Part shown: positions 302 to 63,490 of the stretch, piece by piece
How the letters are laid out: every line of letters begins with the position of its first letter
Position numbering within the stretch: position 1 is the stretch's first letter
Source of the DNA: Tetraselmis striata
Taxonomy: Eukaryota; Chlorophyta; Chlorodendrophyceae; Chlorodendrales; Chlorodendraceae
DNA length: 64,000 nucleotides
Direction: 5' to 3'
NCBI GenBank assembly: GCA_006384855.1
Contig: VCJN01001596.1
Coordinates: forward strand, 62,001 to 126,000
Translations under genes and position numbers: made by a program
Notes under the pieces: generated by a model
Told to the model about the DNA's origin: nothing
The model's database searches: none
Seen by the model: only the letters and a program-made list of their open reading frames with translations

Positions 302-327
302 TTTCAAAGTTGAGTCTGGTTTTGCCA
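302..327 (-). repeat. Split direct repeat B2 (26 bp), element end
   Basis: Identical over 26 bp to 609-634. It is taken as the outer end of the element because no further similarity to the region beyond B1 is visible. Confidence 0.75.
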
Positions 328-419
328 AAAAGGCCGCGCAGGCTGTTTTACACGGTCAAGAGCCGAATTTGGCAGGATGGTTTAGCGAAAGCGTGGAGGG
401 AAAACGGAGTCAGGGGGGC

Positions 420-607
420 GCTGCGTGGAACGCAGCGAAAACTGGAAGATGGCAGGCTCAGCTGTTCTAGCTGCTTTTATATCTACTCGTGCTGCACCCC
501 AAAAGGGCGCAACAACAGATGCCTAGTTCCCGTACCACTGAGCAGCAGCACTTGTAGCGAAAAAGCGGTTAGGTCAAGGGAGGAAACCCCATAAACTAGT
601 TTAAAAC
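420..607 (-). repeat. Split direct repeat A2 (188 bp)
   Basis: Second copy of the 185-188 bp repeat. It lies one base from the B1 repeat (609-634) and 92 bp from B2 (302-327), which gives the B1-A2-B2 end. Confidence 0.85.
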
Positions 608-608
608 A

Positions 609-634
609 TTTCAAAGTTGAGTCTGGTTTTGCCA
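609..634 (-). repeat. Split direct repeat B1 (26 bp)
   Basis: Identical over 26 bp to 302-327. It follows the recombinase frame and abuts A2. Confidence 0.8.
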
Positions 635-687
635 TTCTTGAGCGAACGGAGAGAGCGGTGGATTGACGGAGAAGAGGTAGCGCCAAG

Positions 688-2349
688 TCATGAAGGAGGC
701 ACTGGGAAGGCCACCGCTGCGGAGTCCTGTTGGACTTGGAAGTGGCGGAGGGGGGCGATGTGTCCAAAGAAGAACCATGCGCCAGGTGAAGGAAGAACGT
801 TGGGGTCGATGTAGTCCAGAACGACATCATAGTTAGTGGCCCAACCGCCTTGGTAGCGAATGTGGGACAATGGCACACCGATGGCGTTCGCTGCAGAGGC
901 TGCGCCTTTGCGAAGACTGTGCGAGGTCCAGGAGGTGCCAGCAGGGGGGGCAGCGTTGACCAGACGGATGGCTGTGGACAGCCAGTCTGACATTGTAGCC
1001 GCAATCCAAGGTTTTGACTGCTCATCCGAACTGACAGCCCAGAAGTTCGACTTAGCCAAGCCAACAGCAACCTGGGGGACTGACTGGACGTGGTCGAGGA
1101 AGTGGTGTAGGAGACGTGCTACTCGGGGGTGCTCTGACACTGGGAGGAGAAGTACGCGCAGGTCGTCGGGTCCCCGTCGACCAGCGCGACCCTTCTCTCG
1201 ATACACTTGCAGGGTGATGTTGTAGTCGTCGACATGCACGTCTCGCACTCGACAGGACACGCCAGTAAGGCCCCTGGCAAAGAACATAAAGTTGACAACC
1301 GAGGCCAGGAGGGCTCGGAAGTTGTGGTGGTACTCTGGGTAGGGAGCAGACACAATCAGCTCGGCCTTTGTGACGAAGCGGTAAGCTACATCCGCAGGCA
1401 GAGGGACACGCAAAGGGGCAGCGTCCAGTCGGCGCTGACGCAGCATCAGCCCGCGCCTTGCTGAAGTTAGGTGCAGGCTGTCCTTGGCGATTGGGTCGAG
1501 GTTGTGCAGCTCGAAGAACGTGTTGATCGCAGACATGTAAGGTTGCAACGATTTAGCGGCGATGTGCCCCCGCTCGCCGATCCATGCAACATACCGAACG
1601 ACAGTCGCAGTAGTCGCCTCCAGCGGGCTGATGTTCTCGGAGTCGTGGCAGAACTCCGCGAACTGAGACAGCCGGCCGGCGTAGCTCTTGAGTGTCTGAG
1701 CGCTGAGTGAGCTGGAGAGTAGGTCGAGCGTCCGTTGGCCCATCTCGTCTGAGCCAAACGCGTCCTGCAGCCGAGATCGCAATGAAGCAGCCCAGGGAGC
1801 GACAGCTTCGGGCTCGTCAATTACGTACGTGCGTCGTTTTACTGACAGAGTTCCACCGGTACGACTAATGTTCGCAAAGTACTCGGCAGCAACAGTTAAG
1901 TTCTCGGCGGTTGGCCGGTAGCTGCTGGACGGGTTTGCAGTAGTCTCGGTACGGGTTTGCGGGGCTAGGTTCAAGTAAGAGGGCCGCCCTGCGCGCCCTT
2001 CGCGCTCGTAGCGCCTGTCTCGCGCGTAACGTACCCGCGCGAAACTTGGTCGTTGCGAACCAGTTGTAACACGTAGTGTAACAACCGACGGACGCAGCGA
2101 TGGAATGGTACGGGAGGCGGTTAGTTGAGCCGCCATGTGCAGGTGTGCGGATGGTTGAGCCGCACTCGGCTGTAGCTGTAAGAAGCGCCGCACCGAGGAA
2201 GGTCTAAAGGAAGTCTGTAAGGTGGGGGGGTCAGGTCCTGACACGGGGCGCTCATCTCGCCGTCGAGCTGCAAGGGTGCGCTTTGCGGCGGTCACCGAAA
2301 GGTGGCCTCGCAAAGCTCTAACAGCTCCGACGAAAGGCGCCCCACACCG
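688..2349 (-). CDS. Tyrosine recombinase (DIRS/Crypton type)
   Basis: 553 codons follow the UGA of the Gag-like frame with no frame change. The first in-frame ATG lies only at 2136, so expression may need UGA readthrough or internal initiation. The part after about 2000 is low-complexity linker. A SAM-like N-terminal domain (around TLKSYAGRLSQFAEFC) is followed by the catalytic domain: an arginine in FFARGLTG, an H-x-x-R motif (SHSLRKG, near 905-925), a tryptophan (QGGWATNY) where many families have the second histidine, and a candidate nucleophilic tyrosine in NYDVVLDYID. These are the diagnostic residues of the family. The enzyme would integrate a circular DNA form of the element. The frame is intact and could be active. 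Confidence 0.85.
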   Translation of the reverse strand, partial: RCGAPFVGAVRALRGHLSVTAAKRTLAARRRDERPVSGPDPPTLQTSFRPSSVRRFLQLQPSAAQPSAHLHMAAQLTASRTIPSLRPSVVTLRVTTGSQRPSFARVRYARDRRYEREGRAGRPSYLNLAPQTRTETTANPSSSYRPTAENLTVAAEYFANISRTGGTLSVKRRTYVIDEPEAVAPWAASLRSRLQDAFGSDEMGQRTLDLLSSSLSAQTLKSYAGRLSQFAEFCHDSENISPLEATTATVVRYVAWIGERGHIAAKSLQPYMSAINTFFELHNLDPIAKDSLHLTSARRGLMLRQRRLDAAPLRVPLPADVAYRFVTKAELIVSAPYPEYHHNFRALLASVVNFMFFARGLTGVSCRVRDVHVDDYNITLQVYREKGRAGRRGPDDLRVLLLPVSEHPRVARLLHHFLDHVQSVPQVAVGLAKSNFWAVSSDEQSKPWIAATMSDWLSTAIRLVNAAPPAGTSWTSHSLRKGAASAANAIGVPLSHIRYQGGWATNYDVVLDYIDPNVLPSPGAWFFFGHIAPLRHFQVQQDSAAVAFPVPPS

Positions 2350-2352
2350 TCA
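2350..2352 (-). promoter_or_regulatory. Candidate UGA readthrough codon between Gag-like and recombinase frames
   Basis: The stop is GAG-UGA-CGG. The frame before and the frame after are the same and are open for 284 and 553 codons. UGA followed by C is a known leaky context. Readthrough would give a fusion of about 838 residues. An intron or an internal start could equally serve; the sequence alone does not decide. Confidence 0.45.
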
Positions 2353-3204
2353 CTCGTGCTCACCTTCGCGGCCACGCCCGCGTCCACCGCCACGTCCTCG
2401 CCCACGCCCGCGACCTGCAGCTGCAGCCGCCACTCGAGCAGTAGCGGTCGCTTTCGCGCTGCTGGCTACGGTCGCTTCGAAGACACGGCGCTCGTAGTCG
2501 CGCATGAGGTCCCCAAAGATCGCGGAACCCAGATGCTCCGAAGCAGGCTGAAAATGCTGGGCTCGCAGTACATCCAGAACACCTTGGTCACCGTGCACAC
2601 GTTTGATCTCATTTAGCCTCCGCAGGAAGGCCAAACGAAACCGAAACGCCTTGTCGATGGCCTCGGCGTGGTTCCGAGCTCTCGCGAGGTAGGGGGTGAA
2701 GTCCTGGTTAGCGGCAGGGACGTAGGGTAGTAGCTCGTCGAGAGCCACGAAAAGCGCGGCCATGTGGGCCCCGAAACACGACATCCACAAATACTCCTCC
2801 TGGGCCGGCAGACGCCGGTCGTCCTGCTTGAGGTACTCGTTCGTTAGGTCGGTGCTCAGGGGGAAGAGTCCAGGCACTCGGCTGACCGGTCGAACGGCCT
2901 CGTAACCAGACTCTGCTCTCTGCAGTAGTTCTGGCACCGCGAGGTAGTCATCCTCGGCACTCACGGATTTTGCTCCGACACGGCCGCTCTGGGCTAGCTC
3001 TAGCAAGTCGGGGCGCTCTGCGGCTCCCGCGCTGCCTGTCGGCTGTCCCGCGATGCGCTGCCCGAAGCCGGAACCATGTGCCCCTTCTTCATCAACAACA
3101 CGCTCACGAGCCGTCAATTGAGCTACAGCTGTAGCCAGTGCCCGCACATCTGCTTGCAGCGACTTTAGCGTTGGCTCAGCGACGGGTTCTTCTCCATCTG
3201 ACAT
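2350..3204 (-). CDS. Gag-like protein of the tyrosine recombinase element
   Basis: 284 codons from the first ATG of the frame (MSDGEEPV; the frame also stays open upstream to about 3237 without ATG). The N-terminus has a short heptad-like stretch (LKSLQADVRALATAVAQL) that could form a coiled coil. The middle (about residues 85-245) is a helical charged domain without a recognised enzyme motif. The C-terminus is a run of RG/RGG dipeptides, typical of nucleic-acid-binding tails. Size, position upstream of the recombinase and basic RG tail match ORF1/Gag of DIRS-order elements; I infer that role. It ends in a UGA codon, after which the same frame continues into the recombinase. Confidence 0.65.
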   Translation of the reverse strand: MSDGEEPVAEPTLKSLQADVRALATAVAQLTARERVVDEEGAHGSGFGQRIAGQPTGSAGAAERPDLLELAQSGRVGAKSVSAEDDYLAVPELLQRAESGYEAVRPVSRVPGLFPLSTDLTNEYLKQDDRRLPAQEEYLWMSCFGAHMAALFVALDELLPYVPAANQDFTPYLARARNHAEAIDKAFRFRLAFLRRLNEIKRVHGDQGVLDVLRAQHFQPASEHLGSAIFGDLMRDYERRVFEATVASSAKATATARVAAAAAGRGRGRGRGGGRGRGREGEHE

Positions 3205-3318
3205 GATAACGCACGGACGTACGGACGAGAATATCACACTCGGATGGCGAGCCGGGTGTGGTCTTGAACAACCTGGGGTGACCTTGCTCGCAACTGGTTA
3301 CGAGACAGTTTTTACATC

Positions 3319-3503
3319 GCTGCGTGGAACGCAGCGAAAACTGGAAGATGGCAGGCTCAGCTGTTCTAGCTGCTTATATATCTACTCGTGCTGCACCCAA
3401 AAAGGGCGCAACAACAAATGCCTAGTTCCCGTACCACTGAGCAGCACTTGTAGCTGAAAAGCGGTTAGGTCAAGGGAGGAAACCCCATAAACTAGTTTAA
3501 AAC
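3319..3503 (-). repeat. Split direct repeat A1 (185 bp)
   Basis: Upstream terminal repeat of the element. It matches 420-607 with only a few substitutions and small indels (CAGCAG against CAG; one A/T difference in a TATATA stretch). Its outer end is TAGTTTAAAAC, and its inner end is the small GCTGCG/CGCAGC hairpin. Confidence 0.85.
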
Positions 3504-4870
3504 AAAACCCAGCTAGTGTTCAGTATTTATTTATTACAGCTAGTGTTCAGTCTTACTACAATGCAATAGTACAGTATTTACATACATGATTTATCAGCGA
3601 CTAGTCGCTACTACGCCCTCAGCCCCTCAACGCGAACATACATACTAATTACATGAGCTAGCTGCAAAAGGCGATAAAGAAACCACCCGAATAGGCAATA
3701 GGAAACATCCACTAATCCATACATACATACTAATCCATATACTAATAATTGATCCGAAGACCATCCTTGTGCCAGACTAGCTACCACATCATCGCATTCT
3801 GCATACATGATGTCGACGGAAGTGTCTTCATTTCATCGTTATAAATCTTCTGCTTACATAATCTTCATATATTGTGTTCGCTGCTTCGCTTTATTCATCG
3901 GGGGCGCTCCTATATAATCCTTTTGGATTACCTGGTACGCGTCCAGGCGCCTGGCGCGGCGACTCCTGACCTACCGAGACTACCCGTACAAGTTCCAGAC
4001 CAGTATGGGGATACTTCTTTCTGCCTCTAGCCCATGCATGTCCCCGGTGGTTGGGAGCCAGATCATTCTGCCCCCGACAGAGCACAACCCCGTCACAGAC
4101 GACTTCTATGGTGACGCGCTCATGCATGAATCTCCCGGCACATGTAGGCGCTCACTGTCGTGTACATATTGCATGATGCAATCGCATATGCCCATCACGC
4201 ACAAGCAATCCCATCATGCAATGGGCAGATAGATACCAGCAGCCATGATCTTGTTCTATAGTGGTCGACCGAACACGAAATCTTGCAGTGAGACCATCTC
4301 ATGAGATGCTCCACCCCCCTTGGGAGAGTAGGCTGCGGACATATTGGGCATAGTTGGGCCACCAACCAGTTGAAGTGCTTAAAAGTACATATGAGGCATA
4401 AATAGTAGAGTTGCCCATGGCTAGAAAAGTAGCGAGTAGCAACACGCAAAAGTGTTGTAGTTTTATTAGCATTGTGCATCAGTCTGACAAACCTTTACCC
4501 TATTCATGTCCCAGCTGTGTCACTTCCCTTTGCAGACCCACATACCGAGCAGATTGCCAGCATGGGCGGTTGTAAACCGCCGTCGATTCAGATGGCCAAG
4601 TGGGCTAGGTTTTCGGCGCTGGGTGCGCAGGGCAGCGGCGCCGGGTTGCTGCGCGGAATTATTGCTTGGCATCGGTGATCGAATACATTTACCATCTATA
4701 CGGAAATTCAGCTAGTAGTGCAGGGTCATTGTGTTATATATGTGCACCACACACATATATGCCCCACATCATGGGGCACACATCACATCATATATGCCCC
4801 ACATACTGCCCCACATCATGTAAGAACATTCCAAACCGGGGGAAGTTATGGTCTGTCACTATGTCCGGAT
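3504..4870. other. No gene seen; short repeats only
   Basis: The region holds a 15-bp direct repeat just outside the element (AGCTAGTGTTCAGT at about 3510 and 3539), AT-rich sequence, the dispersed repeat at 3645-3710, and at 4738-4830 several copies of CATATATGCCCCACAT with partial palindromes. Reading frames are short and show no recognisable protein. Confidence 0.4.
3645..3710. repeat. Dispersed short repeat, copy 1
   Basis: The core ACATGAGCTAGCTGCAAAAG with the following GCGAT and an ACCACCCGAA stretch recurs at 63427-63490 (best match), 22428-22460 and, more diverged, 60938-60960. All four have the same orientation. It may be a terminus of a non-autonomous transposon. Confidence 0.55.
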
Positions 4871-30315: not shown

Positions 30316-32002
30316 CTACTGGCGGGGCTGCGCGCCACCGGGCAGCGATCCGCCGTCGGGGTTGCTGCCGGCGGAGGCGCTGGAGGCGTCCGTCAGCTGC
30401 TTGGGCGCCATGACCTCGGGCTTGATGGGCGCCGGGCCGAAGATCTCCGCGCGCAGCGTGTCGTGTAGCTCGTCCATCAGCTTCTGCCGAATCTGGAGCG
30501 GGCCAGAGGCGGGAGGCGGGGGGGGGGGGGGGGGGGGCGGGGCTCAGAGGCTGAGGGAGGGAGGCATGTGGGGCGGCCTTTGCGCCATGGCACTCGAGGT
30601 CAGGCCGCCTCTGCCGAGCAGCCGTGCGGACAGCTGTACATCCACTCCATTGACTACTGCATAGCCAGAGTGCAGCTGCGCTGGAGGGACTCCCAGGGAC
30701 TCTGTTTCTTGTGGGAAGGCAAGGGGGGGGGGGGGGGGGGGGATCACGCTCACCCGGTCAAAGGCCTGCTCCAGGCGCTGCAGCTCCTGCGTCGCGTTTT
30801 GGTTGTACATGAAGAGGCCGTAGTAGAGGTCGAACGAGTCGTTGGCGGTGTTGTTCACGAGCGACAGCAGCGACTCGTAGCCCTTGGTGTCGATGGTGGT
30901 ATTGGCCAGCCCCATCTCGCCCAGCATGCGGCCGACGGTGTGCGTGATGAACTGCGTGGACGCCGCCTGCCGGTCGTGCTCCTCGCAGCTCATCTCCACC
31001 ATGCGGCACCCCTCGCGCGCAAAGCAGTCCAGCAGCGTGTCCGCCACCGCCTTGCGGCGCGGCTTGGCCTCGCTCACGCGCACGCGCTCGTACATCAGCG
31101 GCAGCCCCTCCCAGGAGCCGCGCCCGCTGTCGGGCCCGAACATGGGGTGCAGGCACACGATGTCAAAGTGGGCGGGCAGCTTGTTGAGGAACAGCCGCTT
31201 GGGGAACTCCTTCACGGACAGCACGTCCACAAACAGCGTGGAGCGCTTGAGGCGCTGCAGCGGCAGCGCGCCCAGCGCGGCCTCCGTGGAGATGATGGAG
31301 GTGGACATGATGACCACGTCGGGGTGGTACTCGCAAAAGTCATCCACGTCGCCGAAAAACTTGGCGCCCAGCGCAGCCGCCGCGGCGGTGTAGTCCCCGC
31401 GCGAGTGGCCGATGACATCGTGCCCGTGCGACAGGAAGCGGCGCGCCAGGAACTGCCCGAAGTTGCCAAAGCCCACGATGCCAATCTTCAGCCGGCTCTC
31501 CGCGTGCTTCTTGCGCGCCATGCGAGCCTCCATGTCGAAAGGCTGGGCCGCGTCCAGCGCATACACGCGCGGCGCCGAGCGGCAGGGGGCGCCCCGCCGA
31601 CGCCGCCTGTACTGCTGGTGGTGCTGGTGCCGCTGCTGTGGGACGTAAGGAGCATGCTTCAAATCGCTGATGGAAGGCAGTTCACAGATGCTTCGGGGGA
31701 CTCGGCAACTCAGCAGGTGACTGGCATGGACGATGGGGAAGGGGTCGCGCTATTCTGGTTGGGGAGGACGGGGGGGGGGGGGGGGGGGGCAGAAGTTTGG
31801 AGGTCCTCACCAGCAGTGCCTGCCCGCTCGTGCAGTTGGCCGTGACGGCGGCGAGGGCGCTTCCGCAGCCGTCGACGCCGACGCCGCGGCGCGCCCCGTC
31901 TACACGCCGCGCCGTGGCTAGGGGCCGCGCAGGCCTCGCGGCGGGCGCGGCGCCGACACATCCAACGCACGCTGCCCTGCTGCTGCTGTGCATGGCCTGC
32001 AT
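30316..32002 (-). CDS. Arogenate/prephenate dehydrogenase (tyrosine biosynthesis), plastid-targeted
   Basis: Three exons on the minus strand: 32002-31811, 31635-30754, 30492-30316, all in phase 0, giving 416 residues. Exon 1 is a transit-like leader (MQAMHSSSRAACVGCVGAA, rich in Ala, Arg and Ser). The core begins LKIGIVGFGNFGQFLARRF, a GxGxxG dinucleotide site near residues 116-124. LHPMFGPDSGRGSW (about 226) and the helical C-terminal half (QFITHTVGRML; SLVNNTANDSFDLYYGLF) are family signatures of plant-type TyrA enzymes, which oxidatively decarboxylate arogenate (or prephenate) to tyrosine (or hydroxyphenylpyruvate). Substrate choice cannot be told here. Exon 3 supplies IRQKLMDELHDTLRAEIFG and a disordered tail. 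Both introns contain C runs on the sense strand. The start of exon 2 could be 9 or more codons further on. It is divergent from the RecQ gene. Confidence 0.85.
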
Positions 32003-48139: not shown

Positions 48140-51100
48140 TTAGGCTTTACTAACAGCAGTAGCGGTGGCGGCCGGCGTCCTGGCGAGTGCCGCCGCTGAG
48201 ACTCTGTCGCAGCCGACAAGCTTTAGGGACGCAAGCGCAGCCAACGGTGCAAGCGCCGCCAGCCCAACATCCGTCAAGCGGCAGCGGCTGAGGTTGAGCT
48301 CCGTCAGTTGCTGCAGTGGCGCCAGCTTCGCGATGCCGGAATCGGTGACGCGGTCGCAGTAGCTGAGGTCCAGCGAGCGGAGGCTGATCAGACCGGCAAG
48401 CGACGCGACGCCCCGATCTGACACGGCTCGGCAGCCCGACACAGCAAGAGTGCGCAGGGAAGGCGCTTGCGAGAGCATGACAAGGCCAATGTCCGTGAGT
48501 CGCTGGCAGCGGCCAAGGTTTAGGATGACGAGGTGTGGCAACTCCGCCAGCGTCACGGCCGCCGCGTCAGTGAGCAGCTCGCAGCTAGAGAAGTCCAGAG
48601 ACGTCAGGCTGGGCGCCATTGCGAGCAGCTCGTCCGCGGCGTCGTCGCCCAGCTTCTCGCAGCGTGACAGGCTGAGGGTGTCGAGCCGGGACAGGGAGGC
48701 CAGCGCCGCGACACCTACATGGGTTAGTCGCCGCAGGTTACCAGCGTTTAGATGCTGCAGGCTGCAGGCCAGCGGTGCCAGGCTGCGCAGCCCAGCATCC
48801 GTAATCAGCTTGCAGCTGCACAAGTGGAGAGAGGTCAAGCTTGGCGAGGAGGAGCTCGTGCTCGTCGTCGACAGCCCGTTATCGTCGAAGCAGTCGTCGT
48901 CGGATGAATCGTCATCGTCGGAATACACAATGGGGTCGTAGTCGTCGCTGCTTGTAGTTCGACAGGTTTTCCGAGGACATGCGAGGGAGTCCACTGACAT
49001 GCTCCGGGGTACCACCTTGCCGGTAAGCACGGCAACCAGGTCAGCAAGGCCGTTATCGGTTAGCCGCTCGCAGCCACTGAGGCGCAGGCTCTGCAGGCGC
49101 TGTCCCGGGCCCGCTATGGCCGCCGCCAGCGAGGCGTCCGACAGTTTCACGCAGCCGCTGAGGTCGACGGATTTTAGGTTCGGCCACCCGCCGGCGTCCC
49201 GCAGCCCACGCAGGTCAGCGACGTTGGCGCACCACGCCAGCGAGAGGCGCTCCAGCGAGGGCAGCGCCGCAAGGCGCGATACGCCGTGCCCTGTGAGCCG
49301 GTCGCACCCGGAAAGGTCGAGAGCAGTCAAGCGCGCCGATCGCGCCGCCGCCAGGGCTGACAGCCCGTCGTCGGTGAGCAGCGCACAGCGCGCGAGAGAC
49401 AGCTCGCTCAGGGCACTGCATGCGCGCAGATTGCCTAGCACGGTGTCGGACAGTCGTGTGCAGCGCGCCAGGCTGAGGGTCTGCAGCGCGCGGAGCCGCG
49501 CCAGCGCCGGTGCGGCACTGTCCGACGTGAGGCGCTTGCACCCGGTGAGGTCGAGGCGGATGAGGCGCGGGCAGGCTCGCGCCACCACCGCCAGGTCCTC
49601 GTTTCCCAGGTCGTCCGCGCCGGCGAGGGTGAGCGAAGTGAGCGCCGGCGCGGCGGTGAGCAGTCCGCGGAGCTCGGGGCCGCGCACGGCCGATGGCAGG
49701 GCCAGCTCCGTCAACCCGGCCGCCACCTGCAGGGGACAGGCCGCGCGTTGTGAGCCATGCCTTGTTAGCCATTCCATCCGTGATGGGATCTTGCTGCACA
49801 TTACTCAAAATCCGGCATACACACAAGCCTACTAAGCTATGGCCATGCTCTGATTCGTTAGCTTGCCGCTAATCCCCTACACTACACCAATAAGGCACAA
49901 GCTGCCCCTCTGATTGTCCCGAATAATGCCACATTTGTGAGGTGCAAAGATGCGCTCTGTTGGGTCAACGAGGCGCTAGGCCGTGGTTTACTGTTTGTAA
50001 AGAATAGAGGGAGACTGCACTCTTCAATGTAGCTGTAAGTGGTTAAAGGGCATCATCATCCGCCCCATAAGTGGGTATGCTGTCGTGCGCGCGATATCGT
50101 AAGAAAAGCATGACATATAGATATATACTCACATCCCAAAAAGCTCCACAGCGCTCAAGAATGATATCTTTATGTGCCTAATTTTAATACTGTTTGTATA
50201 TACCTGTGTCTGGAATCCCTGTGCGCCAAGGAGGAGGGCTCATCCTAGCTAGCATGCTGCATATTGGCCTTCAAAGAACGCCGTAGAAAAGGCCTAGCCT
50301 ACCCTATATGCAGCTTCATTCCCAGGAATGAGTTGTAGCAACAGTTAAATTTCATGCCGCATTCCGTTGTGAGGTATGGCACCGCTCCACCTGACCTCAT
50401 GTCACAACTTAACGAAAAAGCACTCTGCACACGCCCCTTGCGATGGAACGAGGACCGACCGCCGGACTGCCAGCATATGCCACGAACTGTGAGCCTGAGT
50501 ATTTGTTGCCTTGTCAATACGGGTGCCGGCGCAGTAGTAATGCAAGCATTCTTGGGAATAGTCAGAATCTGCCCTAACTGTCGAGAGGTCAGATGTACAC
50601 CAAACAGTAACATAACTTATAAAGAGTGTTGTAGGCAAGTCCATTTTCAGCCTTGAATTGCGGATTCTTACTGGTGTATCGGCGCTGCTAGACACTGCAG
50701 GGTCTACCTAGGCATGTTGTTGTCATTGCCGCACTGTTCTGGCAGAGATTGCGCATCGCCCAGGCGAACAGTGGGGATAGGCGAAGGACAGACATGTTTT
50801 CAGTGTGACGGGGGCAGCTGGAGGACTGGGTGAGGAGCGGTGACTAACCTCGAGCGCGGCATCAAGGCGAACCGTTGAGCGGCCGTGTCGACCCTCCGGT
50901 GGGCAGTCGCGCAGGTCAAGGCGCCGCACAGCCGGCAGGCGCGTGCTCCAGCCGCGCGGCAGGCGTGCGCTGCTGGGCCGTAACCGCGCCCGCACGCCCG
51001 TCAGTTGGCGCCCCCAGCCGGCACACACCAGACGTGCCGCCGCTGCAGAGCGCGCGTCCAGCCGATTGAACAGCACGTCCGCCACTGTCTGCGGCAGGTG

Positions 51101-54880: not shown

Positions 54881-55710
54881 CTAATTGCAGGCCAGTGACG
54901 GAATTTCCAACACTGTTGGATCACCGTCTAAAACACTGCCATGAAAATACCCGGCACTGACCACTAAAGGTCACTCCGCCCTACCCGTTTGGGCGTCGGC
55001 CCATTCGAGTAATGCAAGCTGGGGCAAGCCCCATCCCGCGGAGCAAAGCATTTCGGGAGTGCAATACATGTGCAACAAAGAAAGCAATGTGAGGGAGGGC
55101 CCGGCGCCATAGCTCCCATTCCCACTAAAATCCAGGAAGCCGTGAAGGGAGGGGGGGACCCCGCCCAAAACAAAGGCAGTTGAGTCCTCATGTGTTGACG
55201 CAATAACGTGACCACTGATAAAAATCCCTAAACTCCGGAACTAACAACCCCAAATTATGACGGTGATACCCCCATTACTGCGGGCACTCCACCAACATGT
55301 GTTCGATAGTCTCAGATTCACCACCGCCAGATAGATGCAGAGCAGTGTTCAAGAAACCGCTCAGGCATGACATGAATCCGGGCCAATCGGATGATTAGTT
55401 ATTCGTGCCCAATTCAGAGTAGTCCGACCGATTTTAGGGTTTCGGGCATCTTCCCCCAACCCACCGCATGGGTGGACCCCACGACCGTCCTCGGCCCTCT
55501 AAATCGCGAGCCATCGGCCCGTCTCCACCCCCGGCTGGGGATGCGGGCGGGGCTCGTGCACGGGTGGCACCTTGCTAGCCTTGGACCCGCCCGTGTTGTC
55601 ATCAACACTGCCGCGGGGGGGACATTGCGAGCTGGACACCGGCGTCTTATATGTCGTTGCAAGTCCGGTCTACTCCTCGTTCGTTGTTCGTTCATCACCT
55701 TCTCGCTTCC

Positions 55711-62945: not shown

Positions 62946-63434
62946 TTGTCCCTGGCGAATCCACCTTCATCGCGCTACCCCTCGCCCGCCGCTCCTTGTA
63001 GATCCAGCACCGGAACCTCGCGCGGGCGGCACATGGATTCCACGCCTCACGGCCATGGCTGCGCGCCCGGAATCGCCCCGCAAGGCGCCACGGGCGTCCG
63101 GTCAAGCGGTTGCTGGTCAAGCGTGTCCTCTGTCTCGTCAACCCCGCCGATCTCGCCATCCGGTGCGCCTAGCGGGGCGCTGCCTCTTAGCGTGTTTCGA
63201 CCGGAAGGTCTTCGCCCCGCTAGCCTCGCTGACCCGTTTGCCGCTGGAACTTATGTCGCGGGCGGACAGCCCTCAACCAACCTGGGCCTAGGAGACGGGG
63301 CAGCACGTGCGGCCGGTCCGTGCCTGCGTTGCTCGGCGTCAGCGTTGTACGGACATCTTCCAAAATATGCTTCGCTCGGCGGTAGCGGTATGGCTACTAG
63401 TGGTACCAGTAAGAATTACTTACTAGTTACATGA
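62946..63434 (+). CDS. Open frame rich in Ser, Gly, Pro (weak)
   Basis: 162 codons open, no early ATG (first Met at about residue 30). Content is low-complexity (SSVSSVSSTPPISPSGAPSG) with a late PCLRCSASALYG. It ends beside the dispersed repeat at 63427. It could be an exon or part of a transposon, or chance. No family recognised. Confidence 0.2.
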   Translation: MSLANPPSSRYPSPAAPCRSSTGTSRGRHMDSTPHGHGCAPGIAPQGATGVRSSGCWSSVSSVSSTPPISPSGAPSGALPLSVFRPEGLRPASLADPFAAGTYVAGGQPSTNLGLGDGAARAAGPCLRCSASALYGHLPKYASLGGSGMATSGTSKNYLLVT

Positions 63435-63490
63435 GCTAGCTGCAAAAGGCGATCAGGAAATCACCCAAAAAGACAATGGGAAACGTCCAG
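63427..63490. repeat. Dispersed short repeat, copy 3
   Basis: Best match to 3645-3710: ACATGAGCTAGCTGCAAAAG, then GCGAT, then ATCACCCAAAAAGACAATGG. Confidence 0.6.

Follow-up and report, generated by a model that had tools for sequence, protein, structure and literature searches.

Layout of the element

We analysed 64,000 nucleotides of Tetraselmis striata DNA (assembly GCA_006384855.1, contig VCJN01001596.1, positions 62,001 to 126,000), referred to below as the window. Positions 302-3504 are occupied by a 3.2-kb element that lacks a reverse transcriptase (RT). It lies on the minus strand, on which all of its parts are read, in the order A1, gag, UGA, tyrosine recombinase (YR), B1, A2, a 91-bp spacer and B2. 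The left end repeat A1 (187 bp, 3504-3318) aligns with its internal copy A2 (190 bp, 608-419) over 187/190 bp with five substitutions and one 3-bp indel. The right end B2 (327-302) is identical over all 26 bp to its internal copy B1 (634-609), which directly adjoins A2. These long repeats are direct and not inverted; the inverted ends and the internal complementary region of DIRS1-like elements were not encountered. A1 carries a TATA-like stretch and, at its inner end, an 8-bp hairpin, as judged by comparison across copies, and the spacer (328-418) contains TGTAA at 352-348, 20 nt before B2. A derivation of the spacer from the body by shortening was rejected, since the two are not alike (alignment score 23 versus a shuffled mean of 20.4, with 31/200 shuffles equal or better).

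The gag-like frame (2350-3204) was identified by open reading frame (ORF) reading and by homology with the gag of an RT-bearing relative described below. Its C-terminus is RGG-rich and its stop codon is UGA; no zinc knuckle was seen by eye, and matches to solved structures were limited to the low-complexity RGG tails. The YR frame (688-2349) continues in the same reading frame, with the single UGA between the two. It contains a SAM-like integrase domain at about 1713-1510 (Pfam E 1.2e-7) and a segment from His-x-x-Arg to Tyr at about 936-805, and it aligned weakly with Cre across the His-x-x-Arg, GGW and Tyr region (E 0.002), residues which we take to have their usual roles in a YR. Searches of the YR against NCBIfam and PHROGs returned general recombinase matches only. 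In gag, YR and ten further ORFs overlapping the element we found no Pfam match to RT, RNase H or a methyltransferase, and DUF3504 and GCR1_C, which some Crypton groups carry, were absent among the Pfam matches of the YR up to an E of 1. The viral contigs searched held no relatives of YR or gag; a phage search with the element proteins gave one weak archaeal-virus integrase (E 2e-3).

Copies in the host genome

We searched the genome of the host (224 Mb, 2,903 contigs) for further copies. The YR search scored the best 80 copies of 7,702 first-look candidates, and 20 of these 80 loci, the one in the window included, were opened; the gag search scored the best 133 copies of 4,861 first-look candidates. 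The B 26-mer occurred exactly 1,482 times, compared to 0 for the reversed pattern used as a control, and a 24-mer spanning the gag-UGA-YR junction occurred exactly 472 times (control 0). The whole plan was present in 16 of the 20 opened loci, among them the element in the window, and A and B recurred in the same order and spacing. Three of the 16 deviated in detail, with a shortened spacer (L010), a shorter gag (L012) or a 209-bp insertion in gag (L017). Among the incomplete loci, L005 stops in the spacer and L018 reaches a contig end, while L007 and L008, which share their flanks, run from A1 through the body to B1 and then directly into flanking DNA, without A2, spacer and B2. YR was intact in many copies, and at least one frameshift was found in the part read in 18/24 copies chosen by their end DNA. 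A search for PF00589 in the same genome gave 7 matches.

In all 20 opened loci the YR match begins directly at the end of the gag match. Among 60 distinct loci examined, YR adjoins gag directly in 37 of the 37 with a readable junction; ten loci duplicating others were excluded from this count and from the dN/dS, linker, flank-base and end-signal counts below. Both numbers led us to reject a lone internal deletion of an element that carries RT at 2350 elsewhere, a possibility raised in an initial annotation of the window. That annotation had described the A1-body-B1-A2-B2 repeats around a Gag-like frame and a YR without RT, with coordinates correct to a few bases. The description was confirmed, the call for full-length relatives with the same ends was answered by the 16 loci with the whole plan, and the order and spacing recurring in the opened loci show that A and B are not unrelated dispersed repeats.

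Relatives with a reverse transcriptase

The initial annotation had also suggested looking for versions with RT and RNase H between the two frames. None of the junctions described above contained them; more distant RT-bearing relatives are nevertheless present in the same genome. L072 and L074, situated on one contig, carry an RT-RNase H frame of 747 aa. Their YR is damaged (35% identity over 367 aa), and two B repeats of 31 bp lie 307 bp from each other. In L075, gag, RT and RNase H occupy frames that are shifted relative to one another; its YR shows 38% identity over 375 aa (E 3e-73), its two B repeats measure 28 bp and are spaced 365 bp apart, and no A1 could be recognised. Pfam detected RVT_1 at E ~1e-14 in both the L074 frame and L075, and the signals for RNase H (0.008, L074) and Dam (0.057, L075) were below its cut-offs. 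The L074 frame also aligns with the frame of another RT element (L072 2420-4507) through the Dam region of that frame. The B repeats of the relatives begin with TGGCAAA, and TGTAA lies 14-16 nt ahead of B2. The Gag of L075 is homologous to that of the window element, with a score of 100 compared to a shuffle mean of 38 and a maximum of 72 (0/1000 shuffles as high; blastp E 6e-4).

In five RT-type copies (C1219, C2426, C1885, C1220 and C2753) A1, the gag stop, YR and A2 follow in order, as judged by coordinates alone. The span from A1 to A2 is 4,580-4,644 bp in these copies versus 2,896 bp in the window element. The RT-type junction occurred exactly 70 times in the genome; this number and the 472 RT-less junctions come from different patterns and are both lower bounds. 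Among the best candidates scored we saw no RT-bearing copy closer than L072/L074 and L075, and the YRs of two other RT elements (L072 4287-5675 and L073) had no significant match to the window YR (best E 0.056).

Further elements were seen at these loci. A second RT element (L072:2420-5675, C2875) encodes RT-RNase H-Dam in a 696-aa frame, which overlaps a 463-aa YR, and a search of the genome for Dam listed many copies in 696-aa frames. A third element of DIRS/PAT type (L073:450-6545, C103) has a 700-aa gag-like frame, a 1,331-aa RT-Dam frame and a YR unlike that of the window. L071 was considered as an RT-bearing form and rejected, as it is an old damaged relative next to a copy: at L071/L052 (C1425) the B2 of one copy adjoins this relative, whose gag is at 73% in DNA and whose A repeat lacks the first 35 bases.

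End repeats and insertion sites

We compared A1 and A2 in L001-L020 without L008; L007 and L018 had no A2, which left 17 elements. At three subfamily columns, which define three subfamilies, A1 and A2 agreed in 17/17 elements, as expected if one template gives rise to both ends. With boundary columns trimmed, the A1-A2 distance inside one element was 1.5%, compared to 4.0-5.0% among elements. As a free shuffle of partners could reflect the subfamilies alone, we repeated it inside subfamilies; in neither case were any of 5000 shuffles as close as the true partners. Inside subfamilies the own A1-A2 distance was 1.1-1.7%, whereas pairing A1 with A2s from other elements gave 1.9-2.5%. The model for PAT and Ngaro elements implies that the repeats are near-identical at insertion (PMC6681497).

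Most A copies contain a TATA-like stretch, and TGTAA was found in 39/40 spacers, in 38 of them 20 nt before B2. We read TGTAA as a candidate poly(A) signal, UGUAA presumably serving as such in algae of this kind, and the TATA-like stretch as a candidate promoter.

For 16 elements we joined both flanks and compared them with a limited portion of the genome. Five (L002, L003, L012, L014 and L016) matched unoccupied relatives of their site, the one for L014 lying in the window at 55147-55332. None of the five comparisons showed a target duplication, and a 1-nt loss was found at L016. In a sixth case, L040, the left flank matched an unoccupied copy of the site in L075, and the right flank also agrees with L075, for 18 nt. 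The base directly after B2 was a pyrimidine in 40/40 copies. The base before A1 was not G in 36/36, counting left flanks only where A1 begins with TG. A short dispersed repeat at 3646-3693 and 63415-63469 of the window is the insertion site of L002 and has similar sites in several other loci; it is a possible insertion hotspot.

The junction between gag and YR

The gag stop (2350-2352) was UGA in 36 and UAA in one of 37 copies and was followed by CGG in all 37, which makes it a candidate recoding site. The window element, L075, L072 and L078 all have TGACGGTGTG at the gag stop and L077 has TGACGGTATG. Downstream an RNA stem-loop is predicted (2255-2348; −46.5 kcal/mol, z −2.45, 1/200 shuffles as good), with a small predicted hairpin directly after UGA and a main stem that starts ~14 nt past the stop. 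The UGA is followed by a stop-free linker of 71 codons (2137-2349, by ORF reading), which extends to the first AUG of YR and is without stops in frame 0 in most copies. Its dN/dS was 0.397 (bootstrap 0.22-0.78; 37 copies), its synonymous rate was below that of gag, and its base composition by codon position is atypical of coding sequence.

A Gag-YR fusion may be made by UGA readthrough in the window family, a reading which we somewhat favour. At type II readthrough sites UGA precedes CGG or CUA, and a stem-loop frequently lies ~6-12 nt further on (PMC11166343); the UGA-CGG of the window family is a candidate for a site of this type. A somewhat weaker but serious contender is that YR is translated from its own start codon, on the same or another RNA, and that UGA-CGG is a leftover of RT-bearing ancestors without working readthrough. 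RT follows the same UGA in the +1 frame in L075, L077 and L078, and may therefore be reached by frameshifting in these relatives, whereas YR is in frame 0 in the window family. The composition of the linker and the position of the main stem, slightly beyond the cited distance, also speak for a separate start, as does Candida Tca2, a comparable junction of which was not read through in yeast (PMC2194720). Against it stand the stop-free linker with its dN/dS and the UGA-CGG kept in 36/37 copies.

Selection on gag and YR

Choosing copies by protein similarity biases dN/dS downwards, and the values cited therefore come from copies picked by end DNA or by the gene not being measured. For gag we obtained 0.178 (copies chosen by YR, all copies kept). 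The YR core gave 0.158 (copies chosen by gag, all copies kept) and 0.244 (24 copies chosen by end DNA alone, all kept). Separate filtered sets were restricted to rows with >80% amino-acid identity (gag 27/36, linker 33/37, YRn 31/37 and YR core 19/20 kept), and a further filtered set retained 7/24 of the copies chosen by end DNA. The unfiltered values, with dN/dS of 0.16-0.24, place both gag and YR under purifying selection, and the family has therefore spread with working Gag and YR, though most single copies decay.

A probable mode of movement

The window element is one copy of an abundant RT-less family that most likely borrows RT from relatives in the same genome. We consider it probable that the family is a non-autonomous, self-integrating, PAT-like retroelement: RT, RNase H and methyltransferase have been lost, Gag and YR are still its own, and RT would be provided in trans. 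The supply in trans is what we infer; as for its source, RT-bearing relatives with homologous Gag are the donors towards which we lean. A cycle of this kind would start with an RNA that begins in A1 downstream of the TATA-like stretch and ends past TGTAA near the start of B2, and that would thus lack most of A1 and B2. Gag would be made from it, and a fraction of the ribosomes may well pass UGA-CGG and the stem-loop to give Gag-YR. The RNA would enter Gag particles, with RT coming from RT-bearing relatives with homologous Gag. Along the lines of the published PAT/Ngaro models, reverse transcription would restore the missing ends from the joined B1-A2 copy, so that A1 and A2 of one copy would tend to match, as we observed. 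The product would be inserted, presumably by YR, before a pyrimidine and without target duplication; the pyrimidine preference and the lack of duplication are themselves observed.

Several observations weigh against this reading. Only 3/17 elements have their own A2 as the sequence strictly closest to A1, and in two of the three subfamilies the mean distance between A1s of separate elements is smaller than that between A1 and the A2 of the same element. With boundary columns included, 46 private letters are found in one repeat only versus 5 in both, and gene conversion could also cause the homogeneity of A1 and A2. The A sequences of the RT-bearing relatives are unlike those of the window family and the YRs are only 35-38% identical; the donor of RT therefore need not be these relatives. 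L007 and L008 have the A1-body-B1 form that a DNA circle could also leave. We observed neither RNA nor particles, circles or new insertions of the element.

The initial annotation had offered two options, namely RT borrowed in trans by an element with its own integrase or a new recombinase-only type. The former fits, because RT-bearing relatives share Gag, YR and the end layout, A1 and A2 vary in concert, and gag and YR are under selection; for the same reasons the latter is disfavoured. In its Crypton-like version YR would excise an A-body-B circle and reinsert it beside resident short A-spacer-B units, mimicking split repeats. The intact YR of many copies and the forms L007 and L008 would agree with this, and Cryptons are thought to move as circles (PMC3212892). 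Docking on resident units, however, predicts mixed A1/A2 subfamilies, of which we found 0/17. The plan is also common to the RT-bearing relatives, a conserved Gag would not be expected, and Cryptons are described without long direct repeats (PMC3212892); we regard this origin as improbable. Movement without any reverse transcription, with YR-made circles or another DNA-copying route building and homogenising the split repeats, seems to us just as doubtful. If true, it would make the family a new class of Gag-plus-recombinase transposon that resembles retroelements in looks only. Another possibility is that the copies are defunct products of deletion from a single autonomous family, which are carried passively and in which Gag and YR persist as mere remnants; the decay of most single copies (frameshifts in 18/24) would allow this. 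The low dN/dS of gag and of the YR core in sets not chosen by the gene concerned argues against this, and no close RT-bearing sister was seen among the copies opened, which leaves it slightly less credible still.

Comparison with known elements

Like the PAT-like elements of the DIRS order, such as Toc3 and Kangaroo of green algae, the window element has split direct repeats, a YR and no zinc knuckle in Gag, and it shares with them insertion without target duplication (five unoccupied sites, one with a 1-nt loss). PAT elements are defined by split direct repeats, a methyltransferase and a YR, and Toc and Kangaroo are given without a zinc finger (PMC4157794); PAT-like DIRS elements have been reported across relatives of Chlamydomonas (PMC8226300). 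The RT-bearing relatives in the genome fit the PAT-like plan, whereas the window element has no RT, RNase H or methyltransferase. With PAT-like ends, Gag and YR but without two of the defining features, it is thus taken as an RT-less derivative working like PAT and not as a PAT element. The relationship of its YR to those of the relatives was assessed by pairwise comparison inside this genome.

The layout A1-ORFs-B1A2B2 with a YR is also that of Ngaro (PMC8547959). Ngaro, however, encodes RT-RNase H, which the window element does not, and in the definition given in PMC4157794 it has no methyltransferase, whereas the RT-bearing relatives have a weak methyltransferase signal. Like the Cryptons, the window element has a YR without RT. 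The terminal repeats of Cryptons span a few bases, and long direct repeats are absent (PMC3212892). The window element, in contrast, has repeats of 187/190 bp and 26 bp and a gag frame.

Outside these groups, TR-GAG and other partly coding non-autonomous LTR elements have LTR ends, keep Gag and lack RT; TR-GAG-type elements are not known to retain an integrase. TOC1 of Chlamydomonas is an algal split-repeat element that is not known to encode RT or a YR. The non-autonomous retroelements that we know of retain either cis signals alone or Gag alone. A lineage in which Gag and integrase are under selection and the polymerase has been dropped would, if our reading is true, show long-term supply of RT in trans among tyrosine-recombinase retroelements. 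The family is in addition a natural test of the regeneration of split repeats, and its UGA-CGG site seems to be used for RT, in the +1 frame, in the relatives and may be used for YR, in frame 0, in the window family. In the parts of the literature covered by our search (including PMC4157794, PMC8547959, PMC8226300, PMC3212892, PMC6681497, PMC3783388 and PMC3266345) we found no description of an RT-less split-repeat family with gag and YR, though one may exist.

Other features of the window

Rfam and ARAGORN gave nothing in the window. Two ordinary host-like genes are present on its minus strand, a prephenate-dehydrogenase-like frame at 30547-31749 and a leucine-rich-repeat frame at 48143-49804.

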